The position numbers were made by a program, and so were the translations under genes. From the NCBI GenBank assembly GCA_947646735.1, contig CANTFK010000054.1:372001-436000 (forward strand): 64,000 nt of DNA. The letters run 5' to 3'. The notes beneath the pieces were generated by a model. The model did not search any database. It saw nothing but the letters and a program-made list of their open reading frames with translations, and was not told the DNA's origin. Positions 14,196 through 53,954 of the stretch are shown here, piece after piece. Within the stretch, counting starts at the first letter, position 1, and each line of letters begins with the position of its first letter. This DNA is from Peronospora farinosa (Eukaryota > Oomycota > Peronosporomycetes > Peronosporales > Peronosporaceae).

Positions 14196-14610
14196 CTAAA
14201 ACCGTGACAGCCACGGTATCCCAAGTATGCAATCAAATGCACATTCATCGCGTACACCATAAAACTCTTCGTTAATCTGGAAACTGTCGAAAGTGTACGG
14301 TAAAACCACTGTTTTACGCGGAACACGTTTTAATTGTCCATCGACAAGTTTGACCTGGACCTTCTCGAACCGTGACAGTGGATGGGAGAAGGGACAAACA
14401 GGATTCAAGAAAGAAGTTGTTGAAAGCGCCAGAATCCAACAACGCTCGAAGTGGTCGCTTCATTCCAGCGACGATGAGGCTGATAATAATCAGTCTCGAA
14501 TCATCTCGCATGGTGGTGGCATTGAATTGTGTATGAATCACTTTGGGGCTAGGAGCCCGAGCTGCCACCTGAGTACTCGGGGCTCCATTTCTGCCAGTAG
14601 GGCGCCCCAC
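14196..14610 (-). pseudogene. Gypsy E aspartic protease region
   Basis: The minus strand carries the retropepsin-like region in two frames. The 14314-14610 frame has LRALLDSGAFNNFF, with D-S-G as the catalytic triad; the 14196-14408 frame ends FDCILGIPWLSRF, the conserved I-L-G-x-x-W-L block. A frameshift separates them. The upstream edge lies within the stem-loop of the frameshift cassette, so this frame should be reached only by -1 slippage from gag. Confidence 0.8.
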
Positions 14611-14634
14611 GCCTACTGGAACCGCTCGTTTTTT
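14594..14634 (-). promoter_or_regulatory. Candidate -1 frameshift cassette, element E
   Basis: On the minus strand gag reads CAA AAA AAC GAG CGG TTC CAG TAG. The heptamer A AAA AAC is in the correct gag phase and is followed by 9 nt. Then comes an inverted repeat with arms CCAGTAGG and CCTACTGG, extended by further GC pairs. The gag stop TAG lies inside the 5' arm. The protease frame is -1 and is open through the stem, reading P-V-G-V-G-R-P-T. Structure inferred by eye. Confidence 0.8.
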
Positions 14635-15545
14635 TGCGGTACCACCGACGACACAGCGTCTCCTCGTGATACAGCTGTTTTCATCGTCACCGGCGCAGGT
14701 GCTCGACAGACAGCCTCACGATGACCTATCTTACCACAGCGGAAACACTTCATCGTGTTAGGATTGCGAATGTCGCAGCCTAATGGTTTGCCACGACCAC
14801 GAGAGAGCTCGATATTGCGTCAAGTTCTTTTGGCTCTGGGCTAGACGTCCGGGGATGTGGTGACGCTGCGTGCAGGTACGACGACGCGATAGTGCAATCC
14901 TCACGAAGCGCGAGGGCAAATGCCTCCTCGAGGGACTTTGGCTCAGCACGTGTGAGGCAGTAACGCGTCATGCTCTCTTGCATACCAAAAATAAAAACAT
15001 GAGCTGAGTGAGAAGAAGTCTGCACGCAAGCGAGATTCATATTGAGGAGGCTCGAATGCCAGTCGTAAGTCACGCTGGGTATTGTCCAACTTAGGGAACG
15101 CTGACTCATCTACGACGAGCTTTCCGAGAGCCCATTCCTTGGCTTTGCCAGCATTTTGAGACAGCAAAAAATTAACTTTGGCCGTTGGAGCGTCAATTAA
15201 TCTTGAGCGATCGCAATTCCAACCTCGCGAAACCAGCGATGGAGGGGGAGACGATCCGGACCATCACCGGAGTACGTTGACGTGTCCATCTTGGTAGCGT
15301 CAAGCGTCATGGTGCGAAGCGCGCGAGGGAGTCAATACTTGCCGATTCGCTTCGGCGAGCTCGCGCACCATAAAGTCTTGGATGCCGGCACGTTGATCAT
15401 CGGACGTCGCTATGCTCAGCAGCGACGTCACAATAGTTATACCAGACACCGCCGCGAGGCGATGTAGTGCCTGCCACTCCACCGAGGTGAGATGTGGAAA
15501 ATCAGAATGCTCCAGCGAGACCCGAAGACTCGCCCATGTTCATCT
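14613..15545 (-). pseudogene. Gypsy E gag
   Basis: Fragments on the minus strand match the gag of element D: HLTSVEWQALHRLAAVSG near 15480, the capsid-like region at 14943-15167, and a final zinc knuckle CFRCGKIGHREAVC (C-x2-C-x4-H-x4-C) near 14715-14757. Several frameshifts break it. The stop TAG (plus 14613-14615) is inside the stem-loop of the frameshift cassette. Confidence 0.75.
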
Positions 15546-15566
15546 CGAATCTAGTCATTGGAAGAT

Positions 15567-15582
15567 CTACGAAGTGCTACCA
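15567..15582 (-). other. Primer binding site, element E
   Basis: On the minus strand TGGTAGCACTTCGTAG lies 2 nt inside the LTR end. The first eight bases can pair with a tRNA 3' end ...UGCUACCA, as expected of an initiator-type tRNA (inference). Confidence 0.75.
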
Positions 15583-15584
15583 GT

Positions 15585-15741
15585 TGTAACGGCTAAGGAC
15601 TTGTTAGCGTCTTACACTAAAAGGGCGTTGAGGAAGTGCTCCTAATTAACTCGTAAATATAACTCTATTTTATTTTTTGTTTTAGTTGGTAATTCGACGT
15701 AAGTGCGAATATGTTCCCTAGCTCATGGGAACCACTCAATA
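15585..15741 (-). repeat. Interrupted 5' LTR of element E
   Basis: It begins TGTAACGGC (plus orientation) and follows the D LTR in outline up to GGGAACCACTCAAT, where element C starts with its own TGTAAC. The rest of the E LTR is not found further right. Confidence 0.65.
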
Positions 15742-16342
15742 TGTAACAGGGTATCTAGTTACACGTAAACATAAAGTAATATACTATATGTTTGGTCTAA
15801 AAGTATCCATGATTACTTTTGACCTGTCACTTGGGTGCGATACACAAATGTGATCCACCCTCGTGAATGTGATATCCATTGATGGATTAACATAAGAAAG
15901 GATGACGCTAGTTGAAGCTAGGCATCACGACGTCTCAGAAGGACGTCAGTTGCGATCTTAAATCTAGATTTAAGATCATGCGACAGGATACGCTTCTAAC
16001 GAGTCGCGTATCCGATCTATATATATATATATAGCCAATCAGTAGTTAAACATATATTTAGTTATAATTAATTAAATATATCTCAGTCTTGAATTTACTT
16101 ATACAAGCACACCACGCACGAGAAGTTGAGAAACTTCTGCGTGACGTCGGTGACTTCTTGTCTTAGAAGTTCGTTGCACTCTCGCTCAAGCGAGAGGCAA
16201 CTGGTGGTACGACTGCTTAAGCAGTCGACCAACCTCCCAACCACCCTCGCACGCGAAGGTAAGACGGTATAACCGCTTCCTCGCTTGTGCATAAGGTGTG
16301 TGCTCGTAGTACGAGGCAACTTCGTAGAAGTGTCCGTCTACA
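15742..16342 (+). repeat. 5' LTR of element C
   Basis: It starts TGTAACAGGG and ends CTACA, with the TG...CA ends of an LTR. The end lies 2 nt before the PBS. A TA-repeat block (16018-16033) and an AT-rich stretch lie in the second half. The first ~25 bp hold TGTAAC...GTTACA, the same terminal palindrome style as the A/B LTR. Confidence 0.75.
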
Positions 16343-16344
16343 CT

Positions 16345-16359
16345 TGGTAGCACTAGTAG
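16345..16359 (+). other. Primer binding site, element C
   Basis: TGGTAGCACTAGTAG starts 2 nt after the LTR end. It has the same core as the PBS of elements A, B, D, E and F. Confidence 0.8.
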
Positions 16360-16470
16360 TCCTTCCCACGACCCGTCTCTCTGAGCGTGCGTGTGGTTGA
16401 CATGGTCCTTAATATGGACTGGAGTGACTTCCCTCACCTCTCCTAACATCATAGGGAGTTGGCAGAGCAT

Positions 16471-17483
16471 ATGGCGCAGGGACTTGGTGAACAAGCCCTG
16501 GTCAATCTCTTGCATTGTCCTCCTGAGCAACATGTTGCTCAGTTGGAGCAATTGAGACGTTTGTGCTCGGACAGCGTAGAAACGCGTCCGAGGTAAACAG
16601 CCAAGCCACCTCTGAGTCCATCACTAAGACTCAGGATGAGCTTAGGCTTGAGCAGGCACGTAATGAGGCGCTCAACAGGACTGTTGAGACGCTCTCTGCC
16701 CGGCCTGCTCAACCGAGGCCCATTCGTATGGACCCTCCGAAGTTCGATGGAACTAGCCCTCACACGATTGTTCACTGGCTATTAGCAGTGGAGCAATGTG
16801 GAGTGGCGCAGCTCATCGAAGACGACACCAGAATGGTGTCGTATGCGATGTCCAACTTGCGTGGCAAAGCGTCAGAGTGGGCATACTATGCTCTGATGGC
16901 TAATGCTGATGCATTTCCATCATGGGCGATCTTTAAGGCAAATATTCGCGCCATGTACCAGCCGCCTAACAACGAAGTGTTGCTTATGGCGCGCTTCTTT
17001 GGAGCACGACAGGCGAAACGCTCTCTGCAAAAATTTGTGCTGGAGATGCGTTCGCTGTCGGCGTCCATCAATGAAGAACCGATACCAGAACGTATTAAGG
17101 TGGCCACGTTCATGAATGGACTTAGGCATGGCCCATCGCGTCAGGCCCTTTTCAGAAAGGTGCCAGCGACGATGGAAGAGGCAATTGACATTGCCTTAGT
17201 TGAGGAGCAATCCTACAACAGCGCCTCGGCGACAGCCTATTACAGGCCGTCGTCCGAGAGGTCTGATGCCACTCCTCTTGAGTTAGGCAAAGCAGATGTG
17301 ATCTGCTACAAGTGCGGCGAGCGAGGCCATAGGATGGCTCGCTGCTATGCCAAGGTAGCTGCTGGTGCTAAGGCAGCCAGCAAAAGATCTCCCAACCCGA
17401 AGGGAGGTGCGAAGAATCAGCGTACACGACGCACGGGTTCAGCACCTGCCCAAGATGGGTCGGGAAATGCGGGAGCGCAGTAG
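16471..17483 (+). pseudogene. Gypsy C gag with zinc knuckle
   Basis: An ATG at 16471 begins MAQGLGEQALVNLLH. This frame closes near 16600, and the main gag frame continues from about 16563 to 17483 in another phase, so a 1-base frameshift has occurred near the start. The main frame has the Retrotrans_gag-type capsid region (PPKFDGTSPHTIVHWLLAVE ... SLQKFVLEMRSLS) and ends with CYKCGERGHRMARC, a C-x2-C-x4-H-x4-C knuckle. The stop TAG (17481-17483) lies in the stem-loop of the frameshift cassette. Gag forms the particle and packages RNA in this class of element. Confidence 0.85.
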
Positions 17484-17501
17484 GGGCGGGATGCCCTACT
17501 G
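17462..17501 (+). promoter_or_regulatory. Candidate -1 frameshift cassette, element C
   Basis: Gag reads TCG GGA AAT GCG GGA GCG CAG TAG. The heptamer G GGA AAT (17462-17468) fits X-XXY-YYZ in the gag phase, is followed by 9 nt, then an inverted repeat CAGTAGGG...GCCCTACTG (17478-17501) with the gag stop in its 5' arm. The protease frame is -1 and reads V-G-A-G-C-P-T through it. Confidence 0.8.
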
Positions 17502-17504
17502 TCG

Positions 17505-18847
17505 CGGACTCTGAAGCTACCCCTAAGTTCAGAGTGATCGAACAAATGGGTAGCATAGTCCCTGAGGTTCCGAAAGGTCGGACCTCAACCCTTTTGGTCT
17601 ATAGCGCTCGAGTACGAGACTATGAACAAGTGATGACCCTTCTCGTGGATTCGGGTGCATCACAAAACTGTGTGAAACTAGCGGCTCTGAAAAAGAGACC
17701 GGCGAGTTATGAGGCGCTTTGCCAGGATGGCAAGCGAGAAGAGGCGATCGTTCGTTTAGCGAACGGCGCGCTCGTTAAATCGGAGGGAGTTCAAGTTGAA
17801 ATCGCCTTCAGTTTCAGTGACTTCTCTTGTAAAGATAAGTTCACAGTGCGAGGTATGGAGAGTCGTATGACCTCATCCTAGGCATGCCTTGGTTGGCTAA
17901 ACACCAACCAAGGATAGACTGGTGTACACGCACAGTCGCTAGCTCTACGCAAGACACCGGAAAGGATGTGCTCTTGCGAGAGGCTTATGTGGCTGATGCT
18001 GTGTCCAACACAGTCGAGGGTGCGATGACGGTATGTCAATCGACACCAGGAACTACCCAGATCGAAAGTAGTGGTGTAGTTGGAAGTGCACTGGCGGAAA
18101 GCCAGGTGACACATATTCCTACCCAGGTCGAAGAGACTGGTGTAGTGAATGAGGTAGTCATGCGTCCAATAGTCCTGCATAGAGCCGAGAGCCTGTGGCA
18201 GTTGATGGTGGGCTGACAGGAAGTCAAGCGCCACAAGAACCGGCACAGAGCCAAGAGCCTGGTGCGGTTGGAAGGCGTGCGTTAGCTGAGATAGCAACGA
18301 CACCTTCTTCCACGTCAAAGGTCGTGGTGACTCGAAGAACGAGCACCAGACGTATCAAGACGATCAAGGGCACGTCGAAACGAGTGAACCTTGGATCAGT
18401 CTCGGTCCAAGAGGACGGAACTACGAACGAGTTGTTCGAGGCCGTCGAAGAAAAAATGCCGGATGTGTCCTCAGTTGAGGTGCTCCAACTTGTCTTGGCA
18501 TCTGCCGAGGAGATAGTAAATCTCTCGGAGCTGACGTGGGATCTGTTCCTGTCCGAACTAAAGGAAGGAAAGATCCACGAGATAGTCGCACCAGTTCCAG
18601 AAGAGAACGTGGTGGACTGTTGCTCTTCATCCACAATGGATGAGAGCGTCTTGGAGACCGACAAAAAGAAACGGTTCGCTGCTCAAGGCTGGGATGCCTT
18701 GAAGGACAACCCGTTCTATGATGTTTTGTGGAAACACCGTGATGTGTTCCATCAGAATTGCCGAGCCGCCTACCGGCCGATAGGGGCATCAGGCACGAAA
18801 TTGACCTGGAGCCTGGCACCAAGTATTGTGTGACCAGGTAATGGCCG
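17505..18847 (+). pseudogene. Gypsy C protease and linker
   Basis: The frame at 17534-17881 carries the retropepsin-type site VDSGASQNC; GTG at 17534 is only the first in-frame start-like codon, since the frame is open back to the frameshift cassette. Fragments at 17884-18216 (MPWLAKHQPRIDW, the I-L-G-x-x-W-L block region) and 18195-18833 form the linker toward RT. They are joined by frameshifts. The TAA at 18839 interrupts the pre-RT motif VTR-WPLPKEQ. Confidence 0.75.
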
Positions 18848-20062
18848 TTGCCGAAGGAGCAAGTCGATTACATCGATGAGTTCTTCGACAGGCGAGCCAA
18901 GGCGGGACATGTACGTGAGAGCAAGTCGCCTCGCTGCAGCCCGACCTTCTGTGTGCGTAAAGCAACGGGTGGATGGCGCGTGGTTCATGCTTATAATAAG
19001 CTGAACACGGCCACCATTCCAGCTCAAACGCCGATCCCGCGGAAAGATGTTTTGTTGAATTCCATGGGAAAGTCAACTATCTTTTCCGCGTTGGATATGA
19101 AGGATGGCTACTATCCGGTTCTCATGAGAGATACCGATGTAGCCAAAACGGCAGTAAGCACCCCAAGCGGTATGCTGTGGGAGTGGCTTGTGATGCCACA
19201 AGGGTTGAAAAATGCTCCGGCAACATTCAACCGAGTGATGGCTCACGTGATGCGTCAGCAACGTGCCTACGCGCCTCATTACTTTGACGATGTATTCGTG
19301 CATAGTAGGGCGGAGGACGGTCTGAGTGCAATAGAGTCGCACAAGCTTCATTTAGACGCTGTGTTGCAGACTCTGGGTGACGCCCAATTATACGTGAACT
19401 TGCAAAAGTGCGTAATAGGGGTCCCCGAGATACCTGTACTGGGCTGCATCGTAGGTGCACATGGTGTACGAGCAGACCCAGAAAAGGTAAAGGCTGTAAA
19501 GGAATGGCCAGTCCCATGTCATGTGAAGGATTTGCGCCACTTCCTTGGGCTCGCTAATTACTTGCATAAGTACAGCAAGAATTATGCGGAGCAGACTAAG
19601 CCAGTGTCTGACCTTTTAAAAAAGGATTCAGAATGGACTTGGTCAAAGGAACAAGAAGATGCGTTCACTTCAGTGAAGCAATCTCTTGTAGAGGCACCGG
19701 TCTTGGCAGTGCCAGACGCGGATAAGCCCTTTAGCGTCGTCTGCGATGCAAGCAATTTTGCAATCGGCAGCGCGCTCATGCAGAAGGATGACAACGGCGT
19801 TGGCCGTGCCATTTCTTATCAGTCTCGGCTTTTAAAAGCTGCCGAGCTGAATTGCCCTGTGCATGACAAGGAGCTACTTTCAATTAAGTATGCCCTTGTG
19901 AAGTTTCGGGTGCACCTCTTGGGCACTGAACCTTTTGTGGTTTATACGGATCACGCATCACTGCGGACCGCTATAAATTCACCGCACCTCTCGCCGAGAA
20001 TGGCAAGATGGCTAACATTCTTCTCTGAATTCAATTTTAAAGTTGAATATAATCCGGGTTAA
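18848..20062 (+). pseudogene. Gypsy C reverse transcriptase and RNase H
   Basis: A 404-codon frame carries complete RT and RNase H motifs: [54 protein letters not shown] (catalytic F-D-D), [53 protein letters not shown] and [11 protein letters not shown]. It is the longest intact stretch of this element, but stops occur just before (18839) and just after (20060-20062) it. It would copy RNA to cDNA and degrade the RNA strand. Confidence 0.85.
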
Positions 20063-20089
20063 TCGAATGTCTTTGCTGACCCGTTATCG

Positions 20090-21600
20090 CGCAGACCAGA
20101 CTTCGAGGCAAGACACCAGGATAGTGTGTCTCGTGCGAAAGCACAAGTTGAGTCGTCAACATTGGTAGCCATGAAGGCCTACCATGTGACGAGCTCAATG
20201 GCCTCCGATATCAAGGAGTGTTACAGTCAGGACGAACATTGTCGCCCTGCTGTTGGATCATTTTGGTGGGCGAAAGGTTACCCTTCCGTCGCGCCTCAAA
20301 GCGAAGTTAAATCGCTTTAGTTACAGTGATGGCCTGTTATGGCATCAACTGTCACCTGTGATCCCTTGAGAATCTATGTCCCTCATGACACAGATCTCAA
20401 GCTGATGATACTTCACGAGTGCCATGATGCGCCATCTAGTAGGCATCTGGGCCGTGAAAAAAAGACATTCTTACGAGGAATTTTGGTGGCCCCGCCTATA
20501 TCGGTGGGTGGCCAACTATATTCGCTCTTGCGAAGAGTGTCAGCGCATAAAGCCTGCACCTTCAAACAGTGCGCCACTGAAGCCACTGCCGATTCCAACT
20601 GAATGTTGGAAGTCAGTCAATTTGGACTTCATGTTTGGCGCCTGACCATAAAGGCAGGACGGGGCTCGTCGTCTTTGTAGATAGACTGAGCAAGATGGTG
20701 CATTTGGCACCATGTAGCACCAAGATCTCAGGAAAAGAGGCTGCCCTCTTGTTTCTGGAATACGTGTATCGACTACACGGGATGCTCGAGTCCATAGTAT
20801 CGGACCGGGATCCGCGTTTACGTCGGGTTTTTGGCGACATGTGTTCGAGCTGATGGGTAGCAAGCTCCACATGTCAACAGCCAATCATCCCCAGACCGAT
20901 GGCCAAACAGAACGGGCCAATCGAGTCGTGGCGGATGTGTTGCGTACAATAGCGACTCCCAAAGAATGGAGCAAGCAATTGCCATTCGTGGAGTTCGCTA
21001 TTAATAACAGTGTTCACGCCAGTACGGGTGAAACACCGTTTTACATTAACGGACTGCGTCATCCTCGAACGCCAGTCTCGTTTGTACGCAGCCCGAGTCT
21101 TAGTGGGGGAGGGCCCCTCACTTCGCTCGGTGCGAATGCCAAAGAGGGCCAAGGTTGCCCTATTGACACTGCTAATTTAGCAGTGGTCACGACACCTATA
21201 GGTGTCATAAAGGAGGCACGGCAAGAAATGCCAGTGCTCCTTGATGATGACACCATAGTGTTATCAACAGCGTAGACCCATGAACGACCTCTTGGAGGCG
21301 TCATAGGCGAGCTGGATGTTAAAAGCGTGAGAGAAGCTCAGCGCTTTGTGGATGAGCAATTAGCCATCACACGTAAAGTCCGTGACGCGATGGCAAGCGC
21401 ACAGGACAAGCAAAAACAATATGCAGACCAGCATGGTCGCAAAAACAATGAACACTTTAGTGTGGGGGACAAAGTGCTATTAAGTACTGCTACCCTACCT
21501 AAACATGCAATTTCTCCCGTACTACTAAGCTATTGCCCCGATTCATTGGGCCCTTTACAGTGGTTGAAGAAGTTGGAGACCTAAATTATAGGCTCACTCT
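20090..21600 (+). pseudogene. Gypsy C integrase
   Basis: Integrase is broken over frames at 20339-20602, 20424-20645, 20635-20853, 20841-21275 and 21327-21584. Visible parts are the H2C2 region (HECHDAPSSRHLGRE ... CEECQRIKP), the core segments [22 protein letters not shown] and [16 protein letters not shown] with D and E of the DDE triad, and the downstream [20 protein letters not shown] block. The integrase C-terminal region continues at 21533-21850 (PRFIGPFTVVEE ... HPVFYVGRLKRY). Confidence 0.8.
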
Positions 21601-22870
21601 CCCACCGTATATGAAGACGCACCCCGTATTTTACGTGGGTCGTCTGAAACGGTATGTTGATCCAGAAGAGATCACATATCCACATCAGTCTAACGAGACC
21701 GATGGTGACGTCGACTGTGAGTCGAGCGTCGCGACCGATCAGGCGACGAGGAAGCCGAGAGGCTCCCCGTGTATGAACGAGGCGATAGAGGACTCGGTGA
21801 TCGAGGAGGACTCCGCGCTTGACGCGGTCTCTCATTACCAGTCGCTCTAAGATGTACAAACGGGTCTTCAGGCGGCCATACCCCTGACGGTCTCTCGCCC
21901 TCACATCACGCAGATCCGAGGTCAGTCGCGAGACTTGACTCTCGAGATCTGTCACCTGCCTCTTCAGCGCAGCGGAATAAGCCTGCGACTGAACAGCAGC
22001 AGGGTAGGCAGCCGCGAGTAGGTGGGCGTAATCGCCACTCCTATCAAGCGCCACCTGTGTTGGTGGACACGGATGGGAACACGCGCTTCCTTGTTGGAAG
22101 GATGTTGGCCCACCGGTTGTGAAGCGAAAGCTCCAAATCTTTGTCCAGTGGAAGGGTTACCCAACGAGCTTTGACTCGTGGGAGCCTGTGGACGCTTAGC
22201 GCGTTGACGTGCCTGGGCTGGTGACTGCTTATGTGAAGCAGCACCAGCTGTCTTCTTTCTGCTAGGTCCGAGGGACTAGCAGAAGAAGCGTGGCGAGAAT
22301 TAATTGGGGGTCGCTTACCGCCCATAATTTCACGCTTCATGGCGAAGCTAATTCGCTGCGACCGCTGTTTAGTTGCATCTTCATGCAAGGTAACACGGCG
22401 CCGAAGTTCAGCTTCATAGTCGTCGGCTGTTTCGTTAGAACGCAGCAAGAATGGAATTGGGAAAGCACGACCAAGTGCTTTGCCCTGCTTTTTCCACAAG
22501 AGAAAGACGCTATAAAATCTATGAGCGTCTATAGTGGCACGCTGCATAAGCGCTGCGCTAGAACCATCCGAGTTCATCCACTCAGATGGAGGTGGCATTG
22601 GTGGCAAGCCACCACTCACGTAGCCGCCCTCGCGACGGCGGGCTAGTGAGGCCGAAGGTGTACTTGGTGGAGCTTTAAGCTCACACTCACCTGAGTCTGA
22701 CTCTCCATTATGGATTATCAAGACATCAGCTTGAGGAGTTACATCTGACTGAGTCGCGACTACTCCTTTCGAAGTAGCGTGCTAAGTCTTAGTCGCTGCG
22801 CTCGTAGGCGCAGGCGAAGAGGTTTTACCTTCGCTTGTAGTGAGGCCGCTGTCACCATCTTAAAGGCTGC
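21581..22870 (-). pseudogene. Antisense reading frame of element C, coiled-coil C-terminus
   Basis: On the strand opposite pol, a 225-codon frame (22044-22721; TTG is only the first start-like codon, and the frame continues upstream to a TAG near 22785) runs into a second frame at 21581-22054 through one frameshift. The first part includes PPPSEWMNSDGSS and GRAFPIPFLLRSNETADDYE. These loosely resemble the middle of the antisense protein of element B (SGW..., [17 protein letters not shown]). The second part has a heptad coiled coil at about 21839-21967 with L/V at a and d positions. It lies antisense to the linker between integrase C-terminus and chromodomain. Function unknown. Confidence 0.5.
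22040..22260 (+). pseudogene. Gypsy C chromodomain
   Basis: The plus strand reads NTRFLVGRM, then after a small break KLQIFVQWKGYPTSFDSWEPVDA. This is the V-K/Q-W-K-G-Y-P...S-W-E-P core of a chromodomain. In chromoviruses this domain guides integration toward modified histones. The stop TAG after EPVDA and the break upstream show decay. Confidence 0.75.
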
Positions 22871-23037
22871 ACTGTATTGTAACAGCAAAAACATCTACCA
22901 GAGACTCGTTTCTGTTTTAGCAACTATTATTAGAGCTGGATACCGTTCGGAGTCAATGCGCAACAAACAGCATTTGCATTTCAAGAATGCTTTGGCGAAA
23001 CGACACTTTCGCCTAAACGAGCAGTGACATATAGTAA

Positions 23038-23086
<49 letters not shown>

Positions 23087-24947: not shown

Positions 24948-24959
24948 CCCTCCCCCACC
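24948..24959 (-). other. Polypurine tract, element A
   Basis: On the minus strand GGTGGGGGAGGG directly precedes the 3' LTR, the normal place for plus-strand DNA priming. Element B has the same tract at 32321-32332. Confidence 0.85.
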
Positions 24960-25058
24960 AGACTGACGTTCCCATAGAATGTCACTCGACATCTTTCCTC
25001 GTAGAGGTAGTGCTTTAGCGAACGTTTAAAACCTCACGGTTTGTTCACGGCACATAAC

Positions 25059-27268: not shown

Positions 27269-27269
27269 G

Positions 27270-29093
27270 CTAGCCAGCGGCGCTGCCGAATGGGGCGAGG
27301 GGTTTCACCCGTTGACACGTTTCACACGTGCGCACATATGTACTCACCCATTTGTATAATTTGGGCCACCAATAACTTTGGCATACTGCCCCATAGGTCT
27401 TTTCACGACCCAAATGACCACCGATGGCGGTGTCATGTACCTCATAGAGGATACGATACTTCAGGTCCTCGTCATGAGGAACTACAATACGCGGAGGATC
27501 CGCTACATCTGTACGATAGTACAACAGCCCCTCATCGATAGAATATCGATGGAGGCTCGCACGTAATCGTGCCGACAATTTAATGTCCGAGTCTTTAAAC
27601 TCCTCACTGCCAAGAGCATGTAGCAACGCTATACAGTGATCATCTTTAGCATACGCCGTACGAATGAGATCTGTGATAGAAGACGACAACGTCGTCACAT
27701 GAGCAAGCTCATAATCAGGTCTGCGTGACAACGCATCAGCCAAAGCATTTTGCTTGCCCGGCTTATATTTCACCTCGAAATTATATTCGGCAAAGAATGA
27801 CAGCCATCTGGCCATTCTCTGCGAGAGATGCGGCGACTGAGTCGCAGTGCGTAACGACGCATGATCGGTATAGATCACAAAAGGCTTTGAGCCCAGCAGA
27901 TGAACTCTGAATTTGACCAGGGCATACTTCATCGCAAGTAGCTCTTTGTCATGAACTGGATAGTTCTTTTCTGCAGCTTTCAGCTGGCGAGATTCAAAAG
28001 CGATTACACGCTCACGGCCTTCATCATCTGATTGTAACAGAGCACTGCCAATGGCAAAATCCGATGCGTCACAGACGACGCTAAACGGTCGGTCAGGGTC
28101 TGGCAAAGCCAAAATAGGAGCATGTAGAAGGCTCGCCTTCACCGCTTGAAAAGCATCTTCGTGTTCGGCATGCCAACACCATTCCACATCCTTTTTAAGG
28201 AGATTGGATAACGGCCGAGCCATATCAGCGTAATTCTCGCTATACTTGTGTAAGTAATTGGCAAGGCCAAGCCATTTACGCAAGTCCTTTTGAGACTGTG
28301 GAACAGGCCAATCGACTATGGCTTTGACTTTGGCGGGATCCGCTCGTAGGCCCCGCTTCCCAATGAAGCACCCTAGAAAGGGAATCTCTTCGGCCCCGAA
28401 GATGCACTTAGATGCATTAGCATATAATTTATTAGTGCGCATGCACTCGAGCACTGCTCGTAAATGAACAATATGGTTCTCAATATCTGACCGCCCATGT
28501 TCAGCTCGGCTATGGACAAAAATGTCATCAAAATACGTCTGTGCATAACTTCGATGGGGTCGAAACAATTGCGTCACCAAACGGTTAAACGTAGCCGGAG
28601 CATTAGATAGCCCCTGGGGCATCACTAACCACTCCCAGAGCATACCGCTCGGAGTACTAACAGCAGTAAGCGGAATATCACTAGCTCGCATGAGCAATTG
28701 GTAATAACCATCGACTAAGTCGAGCGCACTGTACATGGTACAACCGACCATATTGTTCTGAAGAACATCCTTTCTAGGTATCGGTGTCTGTGCAGGTATA
28801 GTGGCCGCATTGAGCTTATTATAAGCATGAACGATACGCCATTTACCATTTGGTTTCTTAACACAGAAAGTGGGTGTCGAGTGCGGGGATTTACTCTCAC
28901 GCACCATGCCCGCCGCGTGCTTTGCACGAAAGAACTCGTCAATGACGTCACACTGTTCTTTGGGTAAAGGCCACTGCCGTGTTACACAGTATTTGGTTCC
29001 GGGAACCAAGTCAATTTCATGACGTACGCCCCTATCAGGTGGTAGAACCGACGGTGGATCGTGACACACCACGTCCTGGAATTCCTTTACCAA
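27270..29093 (-). pseudogene. Gypsy A RT, RNase H and integrase zinc region
   Basis: A 607-codon frame reads [51 protein letters not shown] (catalytic F-D-D), [30 protein letters not shown], then the integrase HHCC region [15 protein letters not shown]...CETCQRVKP. An extra G near 27300, seen against B, shifts the frame just after CQRVKP and separates this part from the integrase core. The upstream end is cut by a one-base difference near 29117. Confidence 0.85.
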
Positions 29094-30636
29094 AGGATAG
29101 TAGGGATCTGAAGGGTCCTTTCAGAATAGATGCCCCACTACGTGCACTTAGTGCCGCTTTGGTATCTTCAAGGACTGTCTCATCGACAAGCGAGGATGAG
29201 TTCAACTCGAGGTTAGGTCGAATGACCACCATATCGGATAGAGCACCTGCCTTCAAGGCCTGATGAAATTCATCCACAGACATTTCGTCTAGCTCTAAAA
29301 GAGCATTTAATGATGGGAGGGCCTCAAGGTCAACCTCACCATCTACATCACCTGTCACTCCGTTGACCAGGGTGTACAACTGGTCATTGACATTACTATG
29401 CGATAAAACAGACGCTTTGCGTCTCGCAGCCGCCATCTGGCGACGCTGCCGTCTCATTGACGAGACCGTACTCTTCAAAGTACTTGGGATATTATCATCC
29501 CCAAGGTCAACAGACCCCTTGTCGTTTACTTGCCCTATGCGAGGGCCGATGTCATTACCGACACCCAGTGGGTCACTAGTACCAGTGACTTCACTAACAA
29601 GGTCATCGACCTTCACTTGCTCTATACGAGAGCCGATGTCATTATCGACATCCAGTGAATCGCATTTACAGCCAATATCACTAACAAGGTCATCGACCTT
29701 CACTTGCTCTATACGAGAGCCGATGTCATTATCGACATCCAGTGAATCGCATTTACAGCCAATATCACTAACAAGGTCATCGACCTTCACTTGCTCTATA
29801 CGAGAGCCGATGTCATTACCGACATCCAGTAAATCGCATTTACAGCCAATATTACTAACAAGGTCATCGACCTTAACTTGCTCTATACGAGAGCCGATGT
29901 CATTACCGACATCCAGTGTCTCAATATTACTTTGAGTATCACTCAACGGAGTACGTGCCGTTCCACTAAGTGTCATTGAGCTCTGCTCGACACTATTATT
30001 GTTGACATCGGAGTTTATCAACTCAGACACTCCAATGTCCAGCACACTAACTGAATCAGTTAATGGCTCGCGCCAATAGCACTTTTGTTTTCTAGCGAAG
30101 GTGGGTTCATGACTCTCCAAAGCTTCGCTAGGAACATTGCGCGTTGCGCCTAAAGTTTTGGATCTCCAATCGATCCACGGCTCATGGCGTTCCAGCCAGG
30201 CCATACCGAGAATGAGATCATATCTCGAGTCCAAATCTAGGACAAGACAGCGTTCAACGCTATTGAAGTCTAAGAACTTCACACCTAAGTTCAACGGAAC
30301 TTTAGGAACGGTGACACGTACACCGGTCGCGAGACGCACGGTTATACTGTCACCCTCTTGCGCTTCTAGCGCCTCAGCATACAGCTGACTCCCTTCAAGG
30401 GAGCGACGTCGGACATAATTCCCTGACGCCCCTGAGTCAATTAAAATTGACCATGGTTTCTCAAAACCCTTAACGGTTGCCGACACAACCAACAAGCCTG
30501 GCTTGTAATTTTGTTCTATGGGAGCATCCACAGAACCACCTGGGGCTAAGCCCTGTTTACCTTTACCTCCTAAAGATTCAACAGAACTTAGTTCTTTCCC
30601 AGTAGGGCGCCCCGCGCCTACTGGGAGTTGACGTTT
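29035..30636 (-). pseudogene. Gypsy A protease and 29-residue repeat linker
   Basis: The 29035-30531 frame contains the protease site [12 protein letters not shown] and the [17 protein letters not shown] block. Five tandem copies of a 29-residue unit follow (about 29510-29930), with consensus [23 protein letters not shown]. The frame is open upstream of its first GTG at 30531 into the frameshift cassette, so it should be entered by -1 slippage. The frame is lost near 29117. Confidence 0.8.
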
Positions 30637-30641
30637 TCCCC
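30598..30641 (-). promoter_or_regulatory. Candidate -1 frameshift cassette, element A
   Basis: It matches the B cassette base for base: GGGGAAAAC, 9 nt, then the CCCAGTAGG...CCTACTGGG stem with the gag TAG in its 5' arm. The slip run is slippery-like but not a canonical X-XXY-YYZ heptamer in the gag phase. Confidence 0.65.
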
Positions 30642-31619
30642 TGCGGTGCTCGCCTTTTGGCTAGGAGCAGGGTTTCGGCTTTGCCGATTTGAACGTTGCT
30701 TTCGCAACGGACAGCTAGGGCGGAGATGCCTAGTGCTTCCGCACATATAACATCTACGGATGTTACCTTGCTGTTCAGCAGCTTGAAGCTCAGCTTCTTC
30801 AGCATGGCTGAGATCCATGGGTTCCGCCCTATTAGAGGTATTTGATTGATACCAGGGCAGACCATATCGAGCAGATTTAAAATTAAATTCAGCGTTAAAC
30901 GCTACGCTTACTGCCTCCTCAAAAGTTGAAGGCTGGACACGGAAAACTTCCGTCCTGGCGACCCCAGTGCGAAGTCCTTCCATAAAAATGGTTACTCGGA
31001 CTTCCTCTGCCAGTGGGTCCTGCTGCATAGCAGCAATGAGAGTTCTCAACTCTTGGACATAGTCCGACAATTCTTTCTTACCCTGTCGGGTAGCTAGGAA
31101 GCGTGAGCGCACACGATAAGCCTGATTAGGCGGTGCAAACACACAAGTTAATTGCTTTTTAAGCATTTCCCATGTGGGAAATGCAGCATTTACAGAGACA
31201 TCGCTCGTTAGAGCCCACTCTCTAGCTCTTCCACCGAGCTTAGAAATGGCCAAGCCAACTCGTTGCTTATCTGATACAAGCATGGCGGCATCCATTGCCA
31301 TTTCAACTTCTCGGATCCAGAGGAGAAGGTTCTCTCCCTCCTTCCCCTCGAAGGTCTTTACATTTAAAACAAGTGGGCGAGCCTTTGGCTCTGCATCGGG
31401 CACAGGTACCGGAATGTACTGTGTAGGCGCAGCTGACGCTGCCTGGTCATGGACCTGCCCGAGGAGCGTTGCCTCATAACGCATAAAGGCCTCAAGGCGA
31501 GCATTTAGAACCTCGGGGCCTTGGGCCAAAAGGGCCTCGATTTGATCAGGCCCGACGAACGCAGATAGTTTATCTAAGGCGAGTCGTTGTGCCTCAGAGA
31601 GGTGATTTTGATTCTCCAT
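30618..31619 (-). CDS. Gypsy A gag
   Basis: An intact frame of 333 codons starts at ATG 31619; a GTG two codons earlier is less likely. It contains a Retrotrans_gag-type capsid region ([20 protein letters not shown] ... [20 protein letters not shown]) and a nucleocapsid knuckle [14 protein letters not shown] (C-x2-C-x4-H-x4-C) near the end. It stops at TAG inside the frameshift stem-loop. The PBS lies 44 bp upstream. Gag would form the cytoplasmic particle that packages element RNA. Confidence 0.85.
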
Positions 31620-31662
31620 TCTCACAGAGGGTCAGTCTTTAAAGACTCAGGTGTAGGATTGA

Positions 31663-31677
31663 CTACGAGTGCTACCA
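31663..31677 (-). other. Primer binding site, element A
   Basis: Minus strand TGGTAGCACTCGTAG, 2 nt from the LTR end at 31680. Its 3'-terminal match UGCUACCA suits an initiator-type tRNA (inference). Confidence 0.8.
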
Positions 31678-31679
31678 AG

Positions 31680-32320
31680 TGTAGCGGAGCTACACAGCTC
31701 TTTAGCCAGAGGAAGACTTTCGGCTGGAAGCCTCTTAGTTCTAGAGAACTAAATAGAGTGAAGGCTAAAAGCCACTTAGTTCTGAGGAACTAATTAAACG
31801 ACTTAAAGTCACCCTGTTCTAAGGAACTAGGAAAGAGACTTTTAGTCAATCAAGCAATATGCTTAAGGTTCAGAGAACCAACGCACAGAGTGCAAGAACA
31901 AGCTAGAAGCTTAGGGGTTCAGAGAACCAACGCACGAAGTGCACAAGAGAGCAAGTCAGAACGACTTGCGATCTTAAACTCAAAAGGAGAACTGATTATA
32001 TTTATGCTTTAAGATTTTATGAATAGTCCTACTCTAAGTACACTACACTAGATTAATTACTATAATAGTAATTATTATATGCAGACTTTGCTATTGGACG
32101 ACGTATCGTCTAAACATCTGTGTATGATGTACTTAATACAGCGTTAGTGATTTATCGAATCCCAATCGATAAGATACGGTATTACCGAATACCGTATTAT
32201 AACGCTCATACTTAATACCTCTCTAAAGAGAAGTATAATAATGCATTATATGCAATAGAAAGGAGAGTTTAAGCGTAAACTCTCGGAAAGACGCTACAAC
32301 CGTCGTGTAACCCCGTTACA
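31680..32320 (-). repeat. LTR 2, shared by elements A and B, 641 bp
   Basis: One LTR serves as the 5' LTR of A and the 3' LTR of B. It begins TGTAGCGG and ends CCCCGTTACA (plus). It is almost identical to LTR 3, with two or three differences by eye, and more distant from LTR 1. Confidence 0.9.
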
Positions 32321-32431
32321 CCCTCCCCCACCAGACTGACGTTCCCATAGAATGTCACTCGACATCTTTCCTCGTAGAGGTAGTGCTTTAGCGAACGTTT
32401 AAAACCTCACGGTTTGTTCACGGCACATAAC

Positions 32432-33715
32432 ATGACGCCTCCCGGTAGTGAGTCACAGACTCTTCGGGACCTCATTGAAGACGACCTTGACGAAGCGGTT
32501 GATTACGAAAGTGACACCGTCTTTGTGGGACCCGATGGGTCCCCTTTAGCCACCCTCACGGGTGAAGATGACACTCGTCATGCACCGAATCCGTTCCCTG
32601 AACGTGGTGCAGCAGATGCGCTAACAGCGTTACGTGACCCGCCTGACGTATCATCAACGGCGACGGTTACTAACCCACTCGACGAGCAGCAACAGCGGTC
32701 CATCGACCAAGAGGAAGGCGCCAAGCGCCGGACGAAGAATATGACAAGACTGCAGGACCACCGACAGTACAGGTTCAAGCCACCTACAGTGGAAGAACGC
32801 CTAAAGGAAGCATCTGGGCATTCCCTTTCTGGTTGGACCATTGGGCCTGAGGCCATTTCACCTGAGGATGTTGCCACGCGCACGGCACTTCGACAACGAT
32901 ATCTGGAACCCCACATCACTACACAAAGCCAATACTTGGCACGCCTTAATAGGCAAGTGCGCGGTGCGCCAGTCCCTCCCATAAAGGGTGTTCCCATCCT
33001 TCTGTTCGCGGGGGAAACCGAGGACGAAGAAGACACGGCTTTCAGCCGCTGGGCGCATTATGCGCGACGTTTAAGCAGCATGTGGGCCCTACGGGCAAGT
33101 GCCGATGTGGCAGATGTTCGACTTGAGCGGAAGATGCGTTATGATTACGCTAAATTGAAGGCCCGGGGAAAGTTGAAATCCCAACGAACGCATTATGCGC
33201 CTGCTACCCAGCAGCCCAATGTTTCGGCTACCCCTGTAGCCGCGAGTTCACGACAGCCCGAGGCCGCTAACCCGCCTACCCTCACCATTACTGGTGAGAA
33301 GCGTCAGCGCCAACAGGCAGACCCTGCGCACGACGCTCAAAAACGTCCACGGCGTATGGGCAGTCCTGCCGAAGGGGAGTCTCAAACTCCCATGAATTCC
33401 ACGATTCGGGATAACCCCGCCACTTCACCAGATACTGGTTTTGGCCATGGCGGCGACGCTTCTGCAGTAGACGCTCCACATGGAACTGCAGGTTCCCCTG
33501 CGCATCGAGCAAAGGAGGAGGAGGCCGGTGTATCGGTACAAGCTCATGCCGAGCTTGTTCAGGAGGTGCGGTCCCTTCGTGAGGAGAGGCAGACGATGAA
33601 CTCCCGGCTTGCGTCCCTGGAAGAGAGTCGGACCCGAATGCAGGGTCAGCTTGACATGTTGGCGCAGATGCTTCGTCCCGCGACAATGCCAATGGGCTCG
33701 GCGCGAGCGCCTTAG
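32432..33715 (+). CDS. Intact antisense ORF of element B (427 aa), coiled coil
   Basis: The frame runs on the strand opposite gag-pol. It starts at ATG 32432, about 110 bp inside the 3' LTR; a TTG 18 bases earlier is only an alternative. The N-terminal ~100 residues are acidic ([19 protein letters not shown]), the middle carries an SGW segment and [20 protein letters not shown], then a basic stretch ([20 protein letters not shown]). Residues about 375-414 form a regular heptad coiled coil whose a/d positions are mostly L, V and M. It overlaps the 3' 428 bp of pol; its third codon positions face pol second positions. No known family is recognised. An antisense regulator in the style of HBZ is one idea; chance openness opposite a biased pol is the alternative. 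Confidence 0.6.
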
Positions 33716-36700
33716 CGTCTATTTGGGACGGATCCCGATAAGGTTTCAACATGGCGACATAGAACACAGGATGTGTACGCAATTTGCGCGGCAAGTTAAG
33801 CGTATACGCTGTGCCTTTCTTGGCAATGACCTTAAAGGGTCCGATAAAGCGCGGGCGCAACTTCGTCTTAAAGACAGCGGATACTACATTGGTAGGTAGA
33901 TTTTTAGCATTTAATAATACTTGGTCTCCGACCTCATAATCATTAATACAACCTCTGCCTTTCGCATCTGCATATTCCTTTTGTTTATCTTGACTATCAG
34001 CCATTGCATCTTGCACATGTCGTAAGACATTTAGTCGCGTTGCGAGAAACGCATTTACCTGTTTCTTAACAGTATTAGGGCTGACATCAGCAAGCCGATC
34101 GGCAACCTCTCCCCCACCAAGCCCTGAACCACTCGGTGGTAGCGTTAACGGAACGCGTGGGTGTGTAAGACCATTCACATAGAACGGAGTGTAGCCGGTA
34201 GAGGCGTGCACGGAGTTATTGAGAGCAAACTCAACTACAGGGAGCATAGCGCTCCAACGCTTAGGCGTTTCAGCACAAACGCTGCGTAGGATATCTTCAA
34301 CAACGCGATTTACGCGTTCAGTTTGACCATCGGTCTGCGGATGATCCGCTGTGGACATGTCCAAACGGGTGCCCAGCACCTGGAAGACGGACTTCCAAAA
34401 TTTACTCGTAAAACGCGGATCACGATCAGAAACAATTGCCACTGGCAAGCCATGTTGGCGAAACACCCGATCGATAAACAGCTCCGCTGTACCCATACCA
34501 TCGATCGAATCTGGCACAGCCGCTAAGTGAGCCATCTTGCTCAAACGGTCAACAAAGACCACAATACCTGTATTGCCATGCGAATCTTTCGGTAGGCCAA
34601 ATACAAAGTCCATACTAATGGACTCCCAGCACCCAGTGGGAATAGGCAAGCTAGCCAGCGGCGCTGCCGAATGGGGCGAGGGTTTCACCCGTTGACACGT
34701 TTCACACGTGCGCACATATGTACTCACCCATTTGTATAATTTGGGCCACCAATAACTTTGGCATACTGCCCCATAGGTCTTTTCGCGACCCAAATGACCA
34801 CCGATGGCGGTGTCATGTACCTCATAGAGGATACGATACTTCAGGTCCTCGTCATGAGGAACTACAATACGCGGAGGATCCGCTACATCTGTACGATAGT
34901 ACAACAGCCCCTCATCGATAGAATATCGATGGAGGCTCGCACGTAATCGTGCCGACAATTTAATGTCCGAGTCTTTAAACTCCTCACTGCCAAGAGCATG
35001 TAGCAACGCTATACAGTGATCATCTTTAGCATACGCCGTACGAATGAGATCTGTGATAGAAGACGACAACGTCGTCACATGAGCAAGCTCATAATCAGGT
35101 CTGCGTGACAACGCATCAGCCAAAGCATTTTGCTTGCCCGGCTTATATTTCACCTCGAAATTATATTCGGCAAAGAATGACAGCCATCTGGCCATTCTCT
35201 GCGAGAGATGCGGCGACTGAGTCGCAGTGCGTAACGACGCATGATCGGTATAAATCACAAAAGGCTTTGAGCCCAGCAGATGAACTCTGAATTTGACCAG
35301 GGCATACTTCATCGCAAGTAGCTCTTTGTCATGAACTGGATAGTTCTTTTCTGCAGCTTTCAGCTGGCGAGATTCAAAAGCGATTACACGCTCACGGCCT
35401 TTATCATCTGATTGTAACAGAGCACTGCCAATGGCAAAGTCCGATGCGTCACAGACGACGCTAAACGGTCGGTCAGGGTCTGGCAAAGCCAAAATAGGAG
35501 CATGTAGAAGGCTCGCCTTCACCGCTTGAAAAGCATCTTCGTGTTCGGCATGCCAACACCATTCCACATCCTTTTTAAGGAGATTGGATAACGGCCGAGC
35601 CATATCAGCGTAATTCTCGCTATACTTGTGTAAGTAATTGGCAAGGCCAAGCCATTTACGCAAGTCCTTTTGAGACTGTGGAACAGGCCAATCGACTATG
35701 GCTTTGACTTTGGCGGGATCCGCTCGTAGGCCCCGCTTCCCAATGAAGCACCCTAGAAAGGGAATCTCTTCGGCCCCGAAGATGCACTTAGATGCATTAG
35801 CATATAATTTATTAGTGCGCATGCACTCGAGCACTGCTCGTAAATGAACAATATGGTTCTCAATATCTGACCGCCCATGTTCAGCTCGGCTATGGACAAA
35901 AATGTCATCAAAGTACGTCTGTGCATAACTTCGATGGGGTCGAAACAATTGCGTCACCAACCGGTTAAACGTAGCCGGAGCATTAGATAGCCCCTGGGGC
36001 ATCACTAACCACTCCCAGAGCATACCGCTCGGAGTACTAACAGCAGTAAGCGGAATATCGCTAGCTCGCATGAGCAATTGGTAATAACCATCGACTAAGT
36101 CGAGCGCACTGTACATGGTACAACCGACCATATTGTTCTGAAGAACATCCTTTCTAGGTATCGGTGTCTGTGCAGGTATAGTGGCCGCATTGAGCTTATT
36201 ATAAGCATGAACGATACGCCATTTACCATTTGGTTTCTTAACACAGAAAGTGGGTGTCGAGTGCGGGGATTTACTCTCACGCACCATGCCCGCCGCGTGC
36301 TTTGCACGAAAGAACTCGTCAATGACGTCACACTGTTCTTTGGGTAAAGGCCACTGCCGTGTTACACAGTATTTGGTTCCGGGAACCAAGTCAATTTCAT
36401 GACGTACGCCCCTATCAGGTGGTAGAACCGACGGTGGATCGTGACACACCACGTCCTGGAATTCCTTTACCAAAGGATAGTAGGGATCTGAAGGGTTTTT
36501 CAGAATAGATGCCCCACTACGTGCACTTAGTGCCGCTTTGGTATCTTCAAGGACTGTCTCATCGACAAGCGAGGATGAGTTCAACTCGAGGTTAGGTCGA
36601 ATGACCACCATATCGGATAGAGCACCTGCCTTCAAGGCCTGATGAAATTCATCCACAGACATTTCGTCTAGCTCTAAAAGAGCATTTAATGATGGGAGGG

Positions 36701-36995
36701 CCTCAAGGTCAACCTCACCATCTACATCACCTGTCACTCCGTTGACCAGGGTGTACAACTGGTCATTGACATTACTATGCGATAAAACAGACGCTTTGCG
36801 TCTCGCAGCCGCCATCTGGCGACGCTGCCGTCTCATTGACGAGACCGTACTCTTCAAAGTACTTGGGATATTATCATCCCCAAGGTCAACAGACCCCTTG
36901 TCGTTTACTTGCCCTATGCGAGGGCCGATGTCATTACCGACACCCAGTGGGTCACTAGTACCAGTGACTTCACTAACAAGGTCATCGACCTTCAC
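33288..36995 (-). CDS. Gypsy B pol: RT, RNase H, integrase, chromodomain (1,235 codons)
   Basis: Domains in order: linker end, pre-[15 protein letters not shown] with [20 protein letters not shown] and catalytic [11 protein letters not shown], RNase H ([28 protein letters not shown]), integrase HHCC ([24 protein letters not shown]) and core ([38 protein letters not shown]), integrase C-terminus ([30 protein letters not shown]), and a terminal chromodomain ([20 protein letters not shown]). It is open throughout. The apparent GTG start at 36995 only marks the rearranged repeat region; the natural product would be a Gag-Pol fusion. The last 428 bp overlap the antisense frame. Confidence 0.9.
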
Positions 36996-37966
36996 TGCTC
37001 AGGCTCACTAACAAGGTCATCGACCTTCACTTGCTCTATACGAGAGCCGATGTCATTATCGACATCCAGTGAATCGCATTTACAGCCAATATCACTAACA
37101 AGGTCATCGACCTTCACTTGCTCTATACGAGAGCCGATGTCATTACCGACATCCAGTAAATCGCATTTACAGCCAATATTACTAACAAGGTCATCGACCT
37201 TAACTTGCTCTATACGAGAGCCGATGTCATTACCGACATCCAGTGTCTCAATATTACTTTGAGTATCACTCAACGGAGTACGTGCCGTTCCACTAAGTGT
37301 CATTGAGCTCTGCTCGACACTATTATTGTTGACATCGGAGTTTATCAACTCAGACACTCCAATGTCCAGCACACTAACTGAATCAGTTAATGGCTCGCGC
37401 CAATAGCACTTTTGTTTTCTAGCGAAGGTGGGTTCATGACTCTCCAAAGCTTCGCTAGGAACATTGCGCGTTGCGCCTAAAGTTTTGGATCTCCAATCGA
37501 TCCACGGCTCATGGCGTTCCAGCCAGGCCATACCGAGAATGAGATCATATCTCGAGTCCAAATCTAGGACAAGACAGCGTTCAACGCTATTGAAGTCTAA
37601 GAACTTCACACCTAAGTTCAACGGAACTTTAGGAACGGTGACACGTACACCGGTCGCGAGACGTACGGTTATACTGTCACCCTCTTGCGCTTCTAGCGCC
37701 TCAGCATACAGCTGACTCCCTTCAAGGGAGCGACGTCGGACATAATTCCCTGACGCCCCTGAGTCAATTAAAATTGACCATGGTTTCTCAAAACCCTTAA
37801 CGGTTGCCGACACAACCAACAAGCCTGGCTTGTAATTTTGTTCTATGGGAGCATCCACAGAACCACCTGGGGCTAAGCCCTGTTTACCTTTACCTCCTAA
37901 AGATTCAACAGAACTTAGTTCTTTCCCAGTAGGGCGCCCCGCGCCTACTGGGAGTTGACGTTTTCC
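36992..37966 (-). pseudogene. Gypsy B protease and repeat linker, broken at its 3' end
   Basis: The frame holds the aspartic protease site [12 protein letters not shown] and the [16 protein letters not shown] block, then tandem 29-residue repeats. It closes with DDLVSEPEQ and a stop at 36992. Against A, several repeat units are missing and a junction with TGCTCAGGC joins two copies of AAGGTCATCGACCTTCAC out of frame. Upstream the frame is open past its GTG at 37858 into the frameshift cassette and the gag overlap, in the -1 phase of gag. Confidence 0.8.
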
Positions 37967-37968
37967 CC
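37925..37968 (-). promoter_or_regulatory. Candidate -1 frameshift cassette, element B
   Basis: The minus strand reads GGGGAAAAC, 9 nt (GTCAACTCC), then CAGTAGG...CCTACTG with arms extended to CCCAGTAGG/CCTACTGGG and a GC-rich inner stem. The gag stop is in the 5' arm. The pol frame is -1 and passes through as P-V-G-A-G-R-P-T. Gag phase is GGG GAA AAC, so tandem slippage is less canonical than in D, E or C. Confidence 0.7.
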
Positions 37969-38946: not shown

Positions 38947-38989
38947 TCTCACAGAGGGTCAGTCTTTAAAGACTCAGGTGTAGGATTGA

Positions 38990-53953: not shown

Positions 53954-53954
53954 T

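Follow-up and report, generated by a model that had tools for sequence, protein, structure and literature searches.

The stretch considered here is 64,000 nucleotides (nt) of the Peronospora farinosa assembly GCA_947646735.1 (contig CANTFK010000054.1, positions 372,001 to 436,000; hereafter the window). It contains five sites, labelled A to E, which we identify below as gag-pol junctions of Ty3/gypsy retrotransposons. Read on the element strand, each consists of a slip run, 9 nt and a 24-nt hairpin of the form CAGTAGG-N10-CCTACTG. A first-pass annotation of this DNA, made from the letters alone, had described a slip run, exactly 9 nt and then CAGUAGG...CCUACUG at five sites, and a pattern search bears it out at all five: CAGTAGG-N{2,14}-CCTACTG matches the window exactly five times, at 14595, 17478, 30600, 37927 and 53955, and none of 100 dinucleotide shuffles of the window contains a match. 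The slip runs are also as described, namely AAAAAAC in D and E, GGGAAAT in C, and a non-canonical run in A and B, which is GGAAAAC inside GGGGAAAAC and reads GGG GAA AAC in the Gag frame. The range originally given, 14594..37968, covers E, C, A and B and omits D at 53955-53994. Our reading is that, in one large clade of oomycete Ty3/gypsy elements, the cassette very probably serves at the gag-pol junction as a -1 programmed ribosomal frameshift signal. In window coordinates, the features of the five sites are as follows (ORF, open reading frame).

14628..14634, minus strand: E, slip heptamer A AAA AAC, from the sequence and the Gag frame
14619..14627, minus strand: E, 9-nt spacer
14595..14618, minus strand: E, 24-nt hairpin, with the Gag stop TAG at 14613-14615 in the 5' arm
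14314..14715, minus strand: E, pol-frame open stretch spanning the junction; this copy has further stops beyond
17462..17468, plus strand: C, slip heptamer G GGA AAT
17469..17477, plus strand: C, 9-nt spacer
17478..17501, plus strand: C, 24-nt hairpin, Gag stop TAG at 17481-17483
16527..17483, plus strand: C, Gag ORF (Retrotrans_gag, PF03732), ending inside the hairpin
17372..17881, plus strand: C, pol-frame (-1) open stretch spanning the junction and running into the protease region
30633..30639, minus strand: A, slip site G GAA AAC (non-canonical)
30624..30632, minus strand: A, 9-nt spacer
30600..30623, minus strand: A, 24-nt hairpin, Gag stop TAG at 30618-30620
30618..31631, minus strand: A, Gag ORF (PF03732, PF19259)
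29035..30660, minus strand: A, pol-frame (-1) open stretch with aspartyl protease (PF08284)
37960..37966, minus strand: B, slip site G GAA AAC
37951..37959, minus strand: B, 9-nt spacer
37927..37950, minus strand: B, 24-nt hairpin, Gag stop TAG at 37945-37947
37945..38958, minus strand: B, Gag ORF (PF03732, PF19259)
36992..37987, minus strand: B, pol-frame (-1) open stretch with aspartyl protease (PF08284)
53988..53994, minus strand: D, slip heptamer A AAA AAC
53979..53987, minus strand: D, 9-nt spacer
53955..53978, minus strand: D, 24-nt hairpin, Gag stop TAG at 53973-53975
53973..54647, minus strand: D, Gag-frame open stretch with zinc knuckle (PF03732, PF00098)
52846..54018, minus strand: D, pol-frame (-1) open stretch with aspartyl protease (PF13650, PF08284)

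At all five sites, the Gag frame terminates at the TAG of the hairpin's 5' arm, and pol is the -1 frame. The pol frame is open for 12-35 codons upstream of the stem, where it overlaps Gag, and it reads V-G-A/V-G-R/C-P-T through the stem, again as the first-pass annotation had it. Upstream of the junction, Pfam finds Retrotrans_gag and Ty3_capsid in A, B and C, and Retrotrans_gag in D; downstream, it finds the RVP_2 aspartyl protease in A, B and D, while the protease region of C, with no Pfam match of its own, resembles the proteases of the other sites. RVT_1 and RT_RNaseH were found by Pfam in C, the sole reverse transcriptase (RT) piece submitted; the RTs of A and D were recognised by alignment to C, and the domain order was taken from positions. 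With Gag before, a protease after, and RT and RNase H in C, the domain content identifies the five sites as Ty3/gypsy gag-pol junctions. A UAG within a hairpin resembles the gammaretrovirus read-through site, so that Gag-Pol might be thought to arise by read-through of this stop or by termination and reinitiation. Read-through of the gammaretrovirus type needs pol to follow the stop in the gag frame, however, and here the Gag frame past the UAG is not pol, which lies at -1 at every site; we consider this explanation extremely unlikely.

The sites represent fewer lineages than their number suggests. A and B are copies of one family, with identical protease regions (100%), and between D and E the identity in that region is 61-63%, which reduces the five sites to three lineages. 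A fourth lineage, F, lies outside the window in the same genome (L-numbers and C7 positions denote such places elsewhere in the genome). This refines the original description of "four different Gypsy families". Comparing one representative per lineage (L008 for F; E against L156, with 12 residues aligned at 75%, was excluded, E being degraded), we find that the proteases of A, C, D and F share 26-44% of their residues pairwise. Where the residues are identical, the third codon position agrees in 61 of 215 cases, which is near saturation. Over the 24 nt of the hairpin, by contrast, the same lineages agree at 19-22 positions (23 of 24 for A against E), and the linkers flanking it on both sides are divergent, consistent with the earlier statement that conservation is focused on the RNA element. 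That statement would be trivial if all copies belonged to one family by recent descent. There is some kinship to point to, since A and B form a single family, D and E are relatives of each other, and the RTs of C and D are 66% and 60% identical to that of A. Set against the protease identities, the near-saturated third positions and the divergent linkers around a nearly fixed 24 nt, recent descent is next to impossible as an account. As far as these alignments can tell, trivial descent does not explain the conservation of the cassette.

The search was extended to the whole genome (46.85 Mb in 274 contigs), where the exact arm pair occurs at 908 places and its reversed pattern at 0; with one mismatch allowed, there are 1208 places and 6 control matches. 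The spacing between slip site and hairpin is nearly constant genome-wide as well. When each heptamer was searched together with N{3,15} and CAGTAGG, AAAAAAC gave 402 places, GGAAAAC 118 and GGGAAAT 302 (controls 18, 32 and 5), and among the first 100 places listed for each the spacer is exactly 9 nt in 97, 96 and 97, respectively. The total of 290 of 300 listed places speaks against free variation of the spacer, which the first-pass annotation had named, together with a lack of stem covariation, as a refuting outcome, and 9 nt is inside the approximately 5-9 nt expected of -1 signals. The distance of "exactly 9 nt" holds up to the 7-base-pair (bp) helix. Extra pairs can form below this helix and, in some families, reduce the unpaired spacer to less than 9 nt: at alignment column 16-41, A, E and one D copy have C-G, C has G-U and F has U-A, and in the window copy of D the pair is broken. 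In the Gag frame, the slip sites of C, D, E and the F copy C7:316645 fit the canonical X XXY YYZ.

A covariance model built from six junctions was applied to the window and a contiguous 200-kb stretch (264 kb in all), the latter selected after five exact places were known in it. The model finds eleven junctions at 45.7 bits or more, five of which are in the model, and three C-like copies with a hairpin two bases longer at 27 bits. Of the 17 RT matches in the same 264 kb, obtained with queries from cassette-bearing families, 11 have the cassette upstream in the correct orientation. The other six comprise the three C-like copies with the longer hairpin and three matches without a cassette of their own (C7:217296, C7:284313 and C7:233188), the last of which belongs to another clade. 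This Gypsy element (C7:230518-236893, L139) has a different Gag with zinc knuckles and no cassette, and by this comparison the cassette marks one clade, not all Gypsy elements. The three C-like copies (L141, L142 and L143, near C7 positions 259600, 268270 and 274820) share a stop in the Gag tail, and the arms of their longer hairpin are still paired, which together suggests a defective derivative that may have been copied in trans or duplicated.

Viral contigs were searched as well. A looser motif pattern matched at least 120 viral contig stretches; in the 100 searched among the 120 listed stretches that hold the arms, the covariance model scores no higher than 21.1 bits, and we take these as chance palindromes. 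The stricter motif pattern gave no match in viral contigs, and a search with a three-sequence RT alignment confirmed no relative among 40 pattern stretches each of viral and genome contigs.

The predicted fold common to the copies is a 7-bp helix, one bulged base, two further pairs (G-C/G-U and C-G/U-G) and a 5-nt loop. The bulge is present in all 20 aligned copies, the loop is G-rich, and pairing holds in 99.4% of the 180 cells of the alignment, for which the shuffle control is biased by the inclusion of copies fetched as double mutants (L156-L160). Folding is clearly better than that of shuffled sequences for A, F, L157 and L159 (z -3.5 to -4.2) and for L156 (-2.9). By eye, no pseudoknot common to the families is seen in the junction sequences; a GGGGC/GCCCC match is possible in E, and A and F have no evident partner. 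Two family-specific structures may be mentioned. The D and E folds contain a possible outer helix, in these two families only (GGACC/GGUCC and GGUUCC/GGAGCC; window 53935-53987 and 14575-14627, both minus strand), which joins the spacer to the stretch approximately 12 nt past the stem. In family A, a second small hairpin (GAAC-UAA-GUUC in the window copy; window 30580-30600, minus strand) directly follows the main stem and is also found in the diverged copies L157 and L159.

Compensatory changes in the stem, the look-out for which had been recommended at first pass, were sought across the whole genome by searching each of the seven core pairs for places with both sides changed, whether complementary or not. 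Pairs 1 to 7 yielded 2, 1, 1, 1, 1, 3 and 3 places (12 in total), and the reversed-pattern controls 2, 0, 0, 3, 0, 1 and 0. Seven of the 12 were judged not to be the element, three (L161, L162 and L163) after reading their flanks, one as letter-identical to L162, and three (on contigs C183, C272 and C56) by their interior alone. The remaining five, L156-L160, are homologous; in all five the double change is Watson-Crick, and the helix is broken in none. In the covariance model they score 33.9-50.2 bits. They amount to four events in three lineages (A-like twice, C and F): C-G to A-U at pair 1 in the A-like L157 and L158, a single common event; A-U to U-A at pair 2 in L156 of lineage F; G-C to U-A at pair 3 in L159 of lineage A; and G-C to A-U at pair 7 in L160 of lineage C. 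Three of the four, at pairs 1, 3 and 7, altered pol amino acids on both arms relative to their own family. In L157, these changes are P to Q and G to W; in L159 (PLGAGRPN), pol V to L and T to N, along with Gag Q to H; and in L160 (VEAGCST), pol G to E and P to S. The pair is kept each time. For the three pairs overlapping the UAG (4, 5 and 6), the genome-wide search gave no homologous double change.

For a rough estimate of chance, the 300 single-mismatch places (1208 - 908) correspond to approximately 21 per stem position, assuming a 10-base interior at all 908 exact places, as is true of all those listed. Random expectation is then approximately 0.49 double changes per pair. If one third of these were Watson-Crick, the four events compare with 0.65 expected in the four stop-free pairs (P ~0.004, these pairs having been chosen after the fact); over all seven pairs the same estimate gives P ~0.03. 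Taken with the exchanges at column 16-41, the changes at pairs 1, 2, 3 and 7 lend the putative downstream RNA structure covariation support.

At the protein level, the arrangement is also present in other oomycete genera. A slip site, 9 nt and CAG-UAG together predict a Gag that ends in N-x-x-x-Q. Three protein searches listed 297 Gag relatives (the best 120 of 270, the best 120 of 167, and 57 of 57), whose sources include Phytophthora fragariae, rubi, idaei, cactorum, cinnamomi, ramorum, nicotianae, infestans and others, Peronospora farinosa, effusa, matthiolae and destructor, and Hyaloperonospora. After 134 without a recognisable zinc knuckle had been dropped, 163 were counted. The predicted ending is found in 124 of these 163 listed knuckle-bearing relatives; six end in Q otherwise, 25 end differently, and eight have tails of more than 75 residues. 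From the knuckle to the end, the tail measures 23 to 56 residues, and among the 130 tails of up to 75 residues that end in Q, the N stands exactly four residues before the Q in 124, compared with at most 14 of 130 at any of the other distances examined between 2 and 11. N accounts for 6% of the residues in the tails, and the three residues between N and Q are variable. The residue before the N is what GGA, GAA and AAA codons would give: among the relatives listed, G in 26 of 44 and E in 16 of 44 for A, K in 43 of 47 for D, and G in 29 of 33 for C. The mixture of G and E before the slip-site N among A-family relatives (P0001-P0120) would fit a P-site codon that changed between GGA and GAA in the history of the family.

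All three frames of the stem can be read in protein models from several Phytophthora species, Peronospora destructor and P. farinosa. The -1 frame appears in eight models, seven from Phytophthora and one from Peronospora farinosa, as V-G-A-G-R-P-T or with -C-P-T or -R-S-T at its end (one reads VGAGRST). The 0 frame reads R-G-A/D-L-L in four models, and the +1 frame A-P-Y-W in eight models and A-A-Y-W in one. P-Y-W, found in Phytophthora megakarya, idaei, fragariae and rubi and in Peronospora destructor, is encoded by CCN TAY TGG; the resulting C-N-T-A-Y-T-G-G is compatible with the 3' arm CCTACTGG and leaves no choice at the two T that occupy third codon positions of pol.

These models also bear on the idea that the pol-frame peptide is what is conserved, for example as a Gag/protease processing site, with the hairpin as a by-product. 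V-G-A-G-R-P-T, with small variants, is indeed common to the families and to the eight models, within an otherwise divergent linker. A peptide would not account for the third positions, however. Across the 20 aligned copies, the V, R/C, P and T codons are nearly invariant at their paired third positions, whereas the unpaired third position of the Gly codon at the bulge shows all four bases, and elsewhere third positions of identical residues agree only at the near-saturated level given above. Moreover, L159 and L160 each differ from their family at two pol residues while the pairing is kept, and the N-xxx-Q register of the Gag frame is kept as well. We therefore regard the peptide explanation as very improbable. 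It is also conceivable that the hairpin is kept for packaging, for dimerisation through its G-rich loop or for a host factor, and that the slip site shifts ribosomes by itself, as sites of the A AAA AAC type can do to some extent without a structure; such a function could also hold beside frameshifting. The loop is G-rich as this would have it, but neither the fixed distance to the slip site nor a Gag stop inside the hairpin, which a packaging signal does not need, fits this idea, and we consider it improbable as a replacement for frameshifting.

A number of observations weigh against the frameshift reading. The A/B slip site, G GAA AAC, departs from X XXY YYZ, as do those of the F copies C7:222097, L008 and L156 and of L157 and L158. 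The foldings of C, L160, D and E are not clearly better than those of shuffles (z -0.3 to -1.4), and the minimum-energy fold of E is a different structure. In the six junctions not chosen as double mutants, covariation is weak: seven of ten pairs are invariant, the covariation score is matched by 24 of 500 shuffles, the single pair with changes in both partners is reached by 366 of 500, and displacing the helix by -3 columns gives an equal score of 0.167, albeit with 41.7% of cells paired compared with 96.7% in register. Control matches equal real matches, two each, in the pair-1 search. In other species, we infer the hairpin from protein readings. Finally, hairpin-templated mutation could also give compensatory changes. 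Strand switching by reverse transcriptase or repair on a hairpin template yields paired changes without selection, and the palindrome might be upheld in this way; such a process would not be expected to leave the one-base bulge uncorrected in 20 aligned copies, to keep the spacing or to spare the three pairs overlapping the stop, and we think it highly improbable.

Together, these data support the frameshift interpretation offered at first pass and suggest a model in which the shift, its rate and the stimulating role of the hairpin are inferred from sequence. Ribosomes translating Gag would reach the slip site A AAA AAC, G GGA AAT or G GAA AAC. While the P and A sites hold the slip site, the hairpin, whose 7-bp core starts 9 nt downstream, would stand at the mRNA entry of the ribosome and make a minority of ribosomes step back by one base. 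In A and B, the glutamate tRNA on GAA would have to re-pair on GGA by way of a central G-U pair. Shifted ribosomes would continue in the pol frame through V-G-A-G-R-P-T into the protease, producing Gag-Pol, and unshifted ones would end a few codons on, at the UAG in the 5' arm.

It is possible, although we hold it doubtful, that the UAG, always buried at the same position of the helix, itself belongs to the device setting the Gag to Gag-Pol ratio. Unshifted ribosomes would then always terminate 12 nt beyond the slip site, by which point the hairpin would be open in their entry channel, and termination, queueing and re-folding of the hairpin would jointly set the ratio. Such coupling would explain why a stop-in-stem cassette is kept over near-saturated divergence while slip sites are swapped, and why the compensatory changes detected are confined to core pairs outside the stop.

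Apart from the retroelements, the window holds a U1 spliceosomal RNA gene at 60181-60341 on the minus strand (91.8 bits, full length against Rfam RF00003).

In the open-access literature, searched by titles and abstract starts (for some queries, among the best 15 results), we found no description of frameshift signals of oomycete Gypsy elements, in agreement with the first-pass annotation, which knew of none; an earlier description is possible in the subscription literature, which lay outside the search. A Copia-like oomycete element is treated in a passage of PMC7082073, and the word "oomycete" is absent from the main text of the review PMC5009743. As far as the open-access literature goes, this would be the first frameshift signal described for oomycete Gypsy elements. 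The natural compensatory variants and the three versions of the slip site form a series for the effects of slip site, stem and stop on the Gag to Gag-Pol ratio, and the cassette is a short and specific annotation mark, its junctions scoring at least 27 bits compared with at most 21.1 for chance viral arms.

The -1 signals of retroviruses and animal Gypsy-type elements consist of an X XXY YYZ heptamer, a spacer of 5-9 nt and a hairpin or pseudoknot. The oomycete junctions resemble them in the slip site in the Gag frame, the spacer, the downstream structure and pol at -1. They differ in the nearly fixed 24-nt hairpin across families whose synonymous divergence is near saturation, in the Gag stop in the 5' arm, in G GAA AAC of A and B, and in their oomycete hosts. 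For the latter slip site, Red clover necrotic mosaic virus, which shifts at GGAUUUU, offers a parallel, as a P-site codon starting with GA re-pairs on GGA there as it would in A and B; it is an RNA virus, however, with another A-site codon and another stimulator. Of 51 animal retroelements surveyed in 2003, 28 have pol at -1, many with classical heptamers, according to a passage of the review (PMC5009743). The Ty3/Gypsy-derived gene PEG10 also uses frameshifting, with a pseudoknot as stimulator (PMC5009743) and in the -1 direction (PMC2800197), as the relevant passages have it, whereas no conserved pseudoknot is evident by eye in the oomycete junctions. Plant sireviruses, which are Copia elements, have a conserved 27-nt gag-pol motif, and the passage on them describes a stem with covariant bases, 11 bp and a 4-nt loop, with pol at +1, and names no -1 heptamer (PMC5009743). 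On that description, both groups share a stem at the gag-pol boundary that is lineage-wide and has covariant bases, and the dimensions of the stem and the frame of pol, which is -1 in the oomycete elements, set them apart. The proposed mechanism is of a known kind; what is new is the lineage-wide cassette, with its stop inside the stem and its swapped slip sites.

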